NCBI GenBank assembly: GCA_001770425.1
Contig: MEQZ01000014.1
Coordinates: 5,300-38,426 of the forward strand
Reading direction: 5' to 3'
DNA from: Betaproteobacteria bacterium RIFCSPLOWO2_02_FULL_65_20
GTDB lineage: Bacteria > Pseudomonadota > Gammaproteobacteria > Burkholderiales > SG8-39
DNA length: 33,127 nt
Position 1 is the stretch's first letter. Each line of letters opens with the position of its first letter. This document shows, in pieces, positions 10,689-13,165 of this stretch. The notes beneath the pieces are model-generated. The model was not told where the DNA came from. It did not search any database and worked only from the letters and a program-made list of their open reading frames with translations. Both the position numbers and the translations under genes were made by a program.

Positions 10689-12395
10689 ATGTCCCGCGAT
10701 CCCGGACCATCCGATCCCAGCCTGCGCTACGGCGAGTTCCTGAGCGCGGTGCGCGTCAGGCAGCGGCTGGTGAGCTACAACCGCGTGCACGAAGAAGGGC
10801 GCAGCCAGGCCAGGGCGCCGCAGCTGCGCCTCGTCGATCTGCACCGCCTGCTCACCCCTTACGTGAGCGTGCGTTTCCTGGAACAGGCGCGCGCCGTAGT
10901 GCCGCTGGCGCTGTTTCTTGCGCTGTTCCAGACCGCCGCGCTGCGCGTTGCCGTGCGGGAGGGCGACGAAATCATCCTCGGCATGCTCGCGGTGATGCTC
11001 GGGCTGACGCTGTTCATGGACGGAGTCAAGTATGGGCTGATGCCGTTCGCCGAAAACATCGGCTTCAAGCTGCCCGGCCGCTCGCCCACGGCGGTCGTGC
11101 TCGCATTCGCATTCCTGCTCGGCGGGATCGCCACGTTCGCCGAACCGGCGATCGGCGCGCTGCGCGCCGCGGGCGCGGGACTGGATCCGGCGCGCACGCC
11201 CTGGCTGCACCTGCTGCTCACGCGCTATCCGGACCGGCTGGTATTCGCCGTCGGCGCCGGCGTCGGCGCCGCTGTGGTATTGGGCATGCTGCGCTTCATC
11301 TACGCGTGGCGCATGAAGACGCTGGTCATCGCCGTGCTCCTGCCCTGCCTCGCCGCTTCGGTCTACGCCGGACTCGATCCGCGTCTGGCGCCCATCCTCG
11401 GCCTGGCCTGGGACTGCGGCGCGGTCACCACCGGGCCGGTGACGGTGCCGCTGGTGCTGGCGCTGGGAATCGGCGTCGGGGCCGCTGCCGGCGACCGGGA
11501 CAACCCTCTCTCGGGCTTCGGTATCGTCACCCTTGCCTCGCTGTTTCCGGCCATGGCGGTGATCCTGGTCGCCGTGGGCCTGGTGGCCGAAGTGCCCGAC
11601 CCCGGCGCGCTGCCGGCGCTTGCCGAGGTTGGAACCGCGGCGGCGTGGTGGGACCAGACGCCGGTGGCCGAGATGATCGGCGCCCTGCGCGCCATCGCGC
11701 CGCTTGTCCTGCTCCTGTGGCTGGCGCAACGCTTCCTGCTCGGCGAGACGCTGGCGCAGCGCCAACTCATCGCCTACGGCGTGGTGACCGCCGTGCTCGG
11801 CATGAGCCTGTTCAACGTCGGCCTGAGCATAGGCCTGATCCCGCTGGGCGACCAGGCCGGCAACGTCGTTCCCTCCGCCTTTCACGCCGCGCAGGGCGGC
11901 ACGCCGCTCTACCCCTATGCTTTCGGCGTCGGCCTGACGCTGCTGTTTGCCGCCACCATAGGCTATGGCGCCACGGTGGCCGAACCGGCGCTCAATGCGA
12001 TGGGCGTCACGGTGGAGAATCTCACCGACGGCGCCTTTCCGCGCAAGCTGCTGATCCGGGCCGTGGCCACGGGCGTGGCCATGGGCACGGCGCTGGGGGT
12101 CGCGAAAATCATTTTCCAGTGGCCCATGCTGCCGCTGCTGCTGGGCGCCTACGCCGTGGCGCTGGTGTGCACGGTGCTGTCGATCGACGAGTATGTAAGC
12201 CTGGCATGGGACAGCGCCGGGGTCACCACGGGCCCGGTGACGGTGCCGCTCGTACTGGCGCTCGGCCTGGGTCTGGGCAAGGCGGTGGGCGCCGCGGAAG
12301 GTTTCGGCATCCTGGCCATGGCATCGGCCGGGCCGATCATCAGCGTGCTGGCGGTGGGGCTGTGGATCCGCCGCCGCAGCGCCGCCGAGCATTGA
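10689..12395 (+). CDS. DUF1538 domain membrane protein (two-repeat, putative transporter)
   Basis: 568 aa, strongly hydrophobic; duplicated signature 'AWDCGAVTTGPVTVPLVLALGIGVG' / 'AWDSAGVTTGPVTVPLVLALGLGLG' and 'GGIATFAEPAIGAL' / 'YGATVAEPALNAM'; GGAGG upstream of ATG. Confidence 0.85.
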   Translation: MSRDPGPSDPSLRYGEFLSAVRVRQRLVSYNRVHEEGRSQARAPQLRLVDLHRLLTPYVSVRFLEQARAVVPLALFLALFQTAALRVAVREGDEIILGMLAVMLGLTLFMDGVKYGLMPFAENIGFKLPGRSPTAVVLAFAFLLGGIATFAEPAIGALRAAGAGLDPARTPWLHLLLTRYPDRLVFAVGAGVGAAVVLGMLRFIYAWRMKTLVIAVLLPCLAASVYAGLDPRLAPILGLAWDCGAVTTGPVTVPLVLALGIGVGAAAGDRDNPLSGFGIVTLASLFPAMAVILVAVGLVAEVPDPGALPALAEVGTAAAWWDQTPVAEMIGALRAIAPLVLLLWLAQRFLLGETLAQRQLIAYGVVTAVLGMSLFNVGLSIGLIPLGDQAGNVVPSAFHAAQGGTPLYPYAFGVGLTLLFAATIGYGATVAEPALNAMGVTVENLTDGAFPRKLLIRAVATGVAMGTALGVAKIIFQWPMLPLLLGAYAVALVCTVLSIDEYVSLAWDSAGVTTGPVTVPLVLALGLGLGKAVGAAEGFGILAMASAGPIISVLAVGLWIRRRSAAEH

Positions 12396-12420
12396 AAGCG
12401 AAGCAACGGAGGGAGCCCGA

Positions 12421-12804
12421 ATGAAAAAACGCGACGAGATCGTGGTGCTGACCGATGCGGTGCTGATCACCTGCATCGTCCAGCGCGGTTCGGCCGACGC
12501 GGTGGTCGATGCCGCGACGGAAGCCGGGGCGCAGGGCGCCACTATTTTCTACGCGCGCGGCACCGGCGTGCGCCAGAAGCACCTTGGCGTGCTCGGCATC
12601 ACGGTCAATGCCGAGAAGGAAGTGCTCTATATCGTCGCCCCCAGCGACCATGCGGACCACATTTTCGAGCGCATCTACGTCGCCGCCCACCTCGACACAC
12701 CGGGAATGGGCATGCTCTACATGATGCCGCTGGAGAAGATGGCGACCTACGTTCCCCCCGAGGTCGCGACGCGTTTCGGTCACCATGCCGGCCGCCGTGG
12801 ATAA
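12421..12804 (+). CDS. P-II family (GlnB/GlnK-like) regulatory protein, divergent
   Basis: MKKRDEIVVLTDAVLITCIVQRGSADAVVDAATEAGAQGATIFYARGTGVRQKHLGVLGITVNAEKEVLYIVAPSDHADHIFERIYVAAHLDTPGMGMLYMMPLEKMATYVP; ferredoxin-like P-II pattern. Confidence 0.78.
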   Translation: MKKRDEIVVLTDAVLITCIVQRGSADAVVDAATEAGAQGATIFYARGTGVRQKHLGVLGITVNAEKEVLYIVAPSDHADHIFERIYVAAHLDTPGMGMLYMMPLEKMATYVPPEVATRFGHHAGRRG

Positions 12805-13165
12805 GCCGGACAAGGCTGCCGCGGCGCCGCCCGCAGGCGTCCGGTATCGCGTGATCATCTGCATCATGCCCGCCGGCCGCGGCGCGGAGATGCTGCAAGC
12901 CCTGCGCAGCGAGACCGGCGTCATCAGCGCCTACACCCACCATGCGCGCGGCATCGGCACGCACAGCCTGCGCCACCGCATCTATTCCGACGAAAAGCAG
13001 ATCTTCACCGTGCTGGTGGAGGACGAGCGCGCCGACGAGGTGTTCCACTTTCTCTATTACCGCGCCGGCCTGGACACGCCGCACGCAGGAATGATCATGA
13101 TGGGCCGCGCGGCACGCGGAGCCGGCGTCGTTCCGCTGCCCGAGGCCGCAAGCGGCGGCGCGTAG
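12785..13165 (+). CDS. Second P-II-like protein, divergent, overlapping the preceding gene
   Basis: GVRYRVIICIMPAGRGAEMLQALRSETGVISAYTHHARGIGTHSLRHRIYSDEKQIFTVLVEDERADEVFHFLYYRAGLDTPHAGMIMMGRA; shares 'LDTPxxGMxxM' and overall fold pattern with the preceding protein. Confidence 0.7.
   Translation: MPAAVDKPDKAAAAPPAGVRYRVIICIMPAGRGAEMLQALRSETGVISAYTHHARGIGTHSLRHRIYSDEKQIFTVLVEDERADEVFHFLYYRAGLDTPHAGMIMMGRAARGAGVVPLPEAASGGA

Follow-up and report, generated by a model that had tools for sequence, protein, structure and literature searches.

A conserved DUF1538 membrane protein gene with two P-II-like genes: a candidate P-II-gated cation/proton antiporter module

Introduction

Why should a gene for a polytopic membrane protein of the DUF1538 family be followed directly by two genes for P-II-like proteins? 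The locus that raises this question lies in a 33,127-nucleotide stretch of contig MEQZ01000014.1 from Betaproteobacteria bacterium RIFCSPLOWO2_02_FULL_65_20, and we refer to the whole of that stretch as the window. The first-pass annotation of the locus had left the substrate of the membrane protein as unknown, a statement that we correct from the literature: umpA and umpB of Halomonas zhaodongensis are split DUF1538 homologues whose products, assayed in E. coli KNabc and demonstrated to be active in everted vesicles, together carry out Na+(Li+,K+)/H+ antiport (PMC5484666). UmpA and UmpB form a heterodimer, with seven predicted membrane segments in each half (PMC5484666). Cation/proton antiporters set the pH and salt balance of the cell, and their metabolic control is poorly known.

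We found no report of DUF1538–P-II pairing in the open-licence full-text literature, and a report elsewhere may exist. The pairing is nonetheless visible in databases, because NCBI annotation already names the DUF1538 neighbour 'P-II family nitrogen regulator'. Nor is it new in itself for a P-II gene to adjoin a cation antiporter, since PII-NG lies next to the CzcABC metal/proton antiporters in Geobacter (PMC7726332). The novelty here lies in the family to which the partner belongs and in the two-subunit form of the P-II protein. In the reading that we consider probable, the three genes constitute one module, which unites a UmpAB-family antiporter for monovalent cations and protons with a dedicated, non-canonical P-II sensor made of two non-identical subunits.

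Results

Layout of the locus

The layout given in the first-pass annotation, a two-repeat DUF1538 gene followed after 25 bp by two P-II-like genes, agreed with the open reading frames (Table 1), and the second P-II-like gene (PII-B) overlaps the first (PII-A). The overlap of 20 nt that had been claimed holds if PII-B starts at ATG 12785. However, several PII-B homologues begin with Met-Asp-Lys or Met-Asn-Lys at a position that corresponds in the alignment to GTG 12797, so PII-B may instead start at this GTG, which would shorten the overlap to 8 nt. Pairwise dN/dS was ~0.15 for DUF1538, ~0.08 for PII-A and 0.2–0.4 for PII-B, values well below 1 throughout, which suggests purifying selection on each gene. 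Within the window the module is flanked by genes for a TPP enzyme and an MFS protein.

Table 1. Features of the DUF1538–P-II locus, in positions of the window.
Feature	Position	Strand	Basis
Fused UmpA-UmpB-type (DUF1538 x2) membrane protein, 568 aa	10689..12395	+	Pfam PF07556, internal repeat, conservation
N-terminal extension of the DUF1538 protein, ~60 aa ahead of the first repeat; candidate docking site	10689..10868	+	Alignment
Purine-rich acggagggag 5' of PII-A; likely ribosome-binding site	12404..12413	+	Read from sequence
PII-A, conserved P-II-like protein, 127 aa	12421..12804	+	Pfam P-II, residue map, T-loop composition
PII-B, divergent P-II-like protein, 126 aa	12785..13165	+	hhalign, AlphaFold2, Foldseek; start perhaps GTG 12797

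DUF1538 genes are accompanied by P-II-like genes

The gene-neighbourhood survey that the first-pass annotation had proposed gave a clear answer: by hand count, leaving out loci cut by contig ends, a P-II-like gene directly adjoins DUF1538 in ~95 of the ~96 loci inspected. The sole complete exception was a DUF1538 pair that has no P-II gene beside it (L132, genome G245, 828-2467). Among 399 Pseudomonadota genomes, 122 carried both DUF1538 and this type of P-II, 4 carried DUF1538 only (two of these by fragment matches alone), 11 carried the P-II type only and 262 carried neither. This type of P-II was thus found in 122/126 genomes with DUF1538 versus 11/273 without it (Fisher test, odds ratio ~726, p ~1.5e-83, where the p-value is a guide only because the genomes are related and not independent). 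Searching 72,556 plasmids with PII-A (tblastn, E up to 1) returned nine records, and in all nine DUF1538 lay beside or near the P-II gene. The genes that flank the module were mostly not conserved. Together, the locus adjacency, the genome table and the plasmid records bear out the suggestion that the three genes belong together as a conserved unit, and they rule out a chance neighbourhood of unrelated genes, in favour of which we found nothing; the strength of the association and the lack of conservation beyond the module both speak against that explanation, to which we give practically no credence.

The DUF1538–P-II combination occurred in two phyla and in four architectures: split umpA-umpB genes with one P-II gene; a fused DUF1538 gene (~500 aa) with one P-II gene; a fused DUF1538 gene (570–820 aa) with two P-II genes, which is the class found in the window; and, in Clostridia, a fused DUF1538 gene (~500 aa) with a single protein of 217–232 aa that contains two P-II domains. 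We looked for natural fusions of DUF1538 to P-II and found none.

Several individual loci deserve mention. One genome (G101; L133 2130-9640) carries both classes: split umpAB with one P-II gene and, close by on the same strand, a fused gene accompanied by two. The first DUF1538 gene of a conjugative Chelativorans plasmid (L128 2483-2755) has an annotated length of only 273 bp and is probably truncated. Next to a divergent DUF1538 class (L112 128-1501, 4187-4726) lie, among others, genes for a cyclic-nucleotide-binding ion channel and for an LEA_2 protein. Members of a Sulfuritalea-type clade have, as divergent neighbour, a gene for a TrkA-N-containing Na+/H+ exchanger of KefB-like architecture, located at L048 2185-3987 and at equivalent positions in about nine relatives. 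A search of viral contigs gave no useful relatives, and three UNVERIFIED phage-labelled records that carry DUF1538 and P-II genes (L073, L074, L125) are probably bacterial DNA in phage assemblies.

A few genomes carry P-II of this type away from DUF1538. One such solo gene lies at L130 4400-4774 (G022) and a second at the end of the frame at L131 4066-5028 (G181), and the gene order around the two is similar: each is flanked by argB together with an SH3-type gene and, on the opposite side, by a gene for an FAD-dependent oxidoreductase (gene names read from translations).

Relatives that occur without DUF1538, two of them between argB/SH3-type genes and an FAD oxidoreductase gene, could indicate that the transporter is not a target of the P-II-like proteins, which would signal ion or pH state elsewhere and share only a transcript with it. 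Compatible with this explanation is the finding that UmpAB is active in E. coli when no P-II partner is cloned alongside it (PMC5484666), from which it follows that P-II is not needed for transport, although the same activity fits a regulator that is dispensable for catalysis. Against it stands the near-perfect adjacency in two phyla and several architectures, a pattern usual for the genes of direct partners, glnK-amtB among them, and we consider this explanation decidedly improbable.

The membrane protein is a relative of UmpAB

The window protein matched Pfam PF07556 with 330.6 bits over two stretches (cut-off 22.6), which places it in DUF1538, and its two repeats aligned to each other with a score of 303, compared to 54 ± 10 for shuffled sequences. 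The repeats contain matched acidic pairs, E152/E432 in an AEPA motif and D242/D508 in D-x-(A/G)-(G/A)-V-T-T-G-P. In the family alignment, in which identity is 24–57%, D242, E432 and D508 were invariant from Betaproteobacteria to Clostridia and E152 was nearly so. The protein looks like a fusion of UmpA and UmpB halves. Because it scored below the cut-offs of the NCBIfam equivalogs for UmpA and UmpB (NF041627 and NF041628; 201.8/490 and 156.1/500 bits), we treat it as a family relative and do not file it as UmpAB, and for the same reason we take its substrate as inferred and not as established.

The low family identity and the equivalog scores, together with the occurrence of relatives in freshwater and groundwater bacteria and not in halophiles alone, would also accord with a fused two-P-II branch that moves another ion or a small metabolite and is still gated by P-II. 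We consider a different substrate rather unlikely, given that the acidic motifs are kept throughout the family and that a Na+/H+ exchanger gene adjoins the module in one clade.

The N-terminal extension was present in the window protein and in L063, L123, L105, L108, L112 and L114; it tracks the class with two P-II genes, being absent or far shorter in the single-P-II and clostridial classes. A separate DUF1538 protein of up to 817 aa (L122 4006-6459, G444), whose true start is possibly further in, has ~245 N-terminal residues without a Pfam match. The AlphaFold2 model of the window's DUF1538 protein was too poor for us to assign a fold (mean pLDDT 52.7, from 20 sequences of 58–87% identity). 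Foldseek of this model against the PDB gave no match better than E 0.27, and a PDB sequence search with the protein gave no relative even at E 10.

PII-A and PII-B are two dissimilar members of the P-II superfamily

PII-A matched the Pfam P-II family with 44.6 bits (cut-off 25), whereas PII-B reached only 12.5 bits. The PII-B orthologue of L105 nevertheless scored 32.6 bits, above the cut-off, and hhalign aligned PII-B to PII-A with 97.8% probability (E 6.5e-13). The AlphaFold2 model of PII-B has the order beta-alpha-beta-beta-alpha-beta with a core pLDDT of ~90, and its nearest PDB match by Foldseek was GlnK (E 2.4e-6). Judged by profile comparison, orthologue score and predicted fold, PII-B is a member of the P-II superfamily, and the placement of both small proteins there by the first-pass annotation was therefore sound.

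The two proteins differ in what they have kept. All 16 PII-A sequences retain G27, T29, G35, G37, G87 and G89 (GlnB/GlnK numbering), and all 16 lack K90, R101, R103 and Tyr51; the position of Q39 is R in 13/16 and Q in 3/16. PII-A accordingly falls outside canonical GlnB/GlnK as defined by Y51, Q39, K90, R101 and R103. PII-B has also lost G27/T29, leaving most nucleotide-site residues gone, which disfavours PII-B as a full second sensor. That neither protein has a canonical T-loop, as had been noticed from the letters, was confirmed by the residue map and extends to the effector residues: these P-II-like proteins have neither the Tyr that is uridylylated in GlnB nor its Lys/Arg residues for the phosphates of ATP. 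The source genome has two canonical P-II genes elsewhere.

The T-loop of PII-A is 19–20 residues long and hydrophobic (hydrophobic share 53%, versus 28% in PII-B, whose T-loop is net basic). PII-B also diverges faster, with a mean pairwise identity of 0.31 compared to 0.63 for PII-A. In a tree PII-A and PII-B formed separate clades and the clostridial P-II domain pairs grouped with neither, which would allow for two separate origins of paired P-II designs.

The separate, independently conserved clades and the purifying selection on both genes would accord with PII-A and PII-B forming two distinct homotrimers that answer to two different signals, giving a two-signal gate without a heteromer. 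Having lost G27/T29 and the hydrophobic T-loop, however, PII-B looks poorly suited to bind nucleotide or to plug a transporter alone, and in Clostridia the two P-II domains are one chain, which makes separate homotrimers improbable.

Discussion

We return to the module of antiporter and two-subunit sensor. Comparison of genomes shows that DUF1538, PII-A and PII-B make up one conserved gene unit. By extension from the characterised Halomonas relative, the membrane protein would move Na+, K+ or Li+ against H+. A PII-A trimer would sit at its cytoplasmic face, as in SbtB-SbtA and GlnK-AmtB, and the short hydrophobic T-loop of PII-A, by the same analogy the best candidate for a plug, would enter the transporter and arrest it. 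PII-B, its nucleotide-site residues lost, would join PII-A in a ratio of ~1:1 as a structural or modulating partner, a stoichiometry suggested by the fused two-domain proteins of Clostridia. These fused proteins also lend indirect support to the heteromeric or two-signal gate that the first-pass annotation had raised. Counting against the reading as a whole are the activity of UmpAB with no P-II partner cloned, the equivalog scores of the fused protein, the DUF1538 pair of L132, the P-II genes of this type that lie away from DUF1538 in a few genomes, and the poor AlphaFold2 model of the transporter.

The ligand is unlikely to be the classical pair of ATP and 2-oxoglutarate, and an adenine nucleotide (AMP or cAMP, as in SbtB) would be the first candidate. 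We also considered c-di-AMP, which controls K+ transport elsewhere; it is unlikely here because we detected no diadenylate cyclase in the source genome, which is 86.8% complete.

The retention of P-II beside nearly every member of an antiporter family favours direct metabolic gating, and this adjacency suggests a so far undescribed switching of ion and pH homeostasis by metabolic signals. We put forward, tentatively and at somewhat less than an even chance, that cation/proton antiport under P-II gating is the rule among DUF1538/Ump proteins, and that one branch, and perhaps Clostridia separately, uses a two-subunit gate in which one subunit no longer binds ligand. If true, these proteins would add a further large class of P-II-controlled transporters to AmtB and SbtA, and would tie the homeostasis of pH and monovalent cations to a P-II signal that is not ATP/2-oxoglutarate. 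The two-subunit version, if true, would show P-II splitting into a conserved and a degenerate partner. The DUF1538–P-II locus offers small protein pairs on which such proposals can be tested.

Among known systems, UmpAB is like the window protein in belonging to DUF1538 and in having two homologous seven-segment halves, in which the same acidic motifs are expected. UmpAB consists of two separate subunits, whereas the window protein is one fused chain, and the paper that describes UmpAB mentions no P-II gene (PMC5484666), whereas the window transporter adjoins two.

The PII-NG/CzcABC system likewise places a P-II-type gene beside a proton-coupled cation exporter, but it combines an RND metal pump with a single P-II where the window combines DUF1538 with two. 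We do not assign the module to PII-NG, a decision made on neighbourhood and not on sequence clade: the neighbour is DUF1538 throughout and not a CzcA/CusA-type RND protein, and the PII-A search of 72,556 plasmids retrieved no CzcABC-type locus.

In AmtB-GlnK a P-II gene also adjoins a transporter, which GlnK blocks, but GlnK keeps Y51, K90, R101 and R103 and binds ATP/2-oxoglutarate, whereas PII-A has lost these residues. SbtA-SbtB shares with the window module a dedicated, non-canonical P-II-like protein beside a transporter, in this case for bicarbonate (PMC8352866), and supplies the model of T-loop gating that we apply here, in which SbtB inserts its T-loop into the carrier's cytoplasmic cleft (PMC8352866). 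It has one P-II-like protein where the window module has two, and the systems are unrelated by sequence as far as tested. The C-terminal CGPxGC motif (R-loop) of some SbtBs is absent from PII-A and PII-B, and their neighbour is DUF1538 and not sbtA, which sets them apart from SbtB.

Finally, NifI1 and NifI2 of archaeal nitrogenase, like PII-A and PII-B, are encoded by two adjacent, non-identical P-II genes, and both are required for switch-off (PMC9765008). Their target is nitrogenase, and we distinguish the window module from them on neighbourhood, there being no nif genes near it. NifI1/NifI2 are the closest earlier example of a single target served by two P-II proteins that are not identical.
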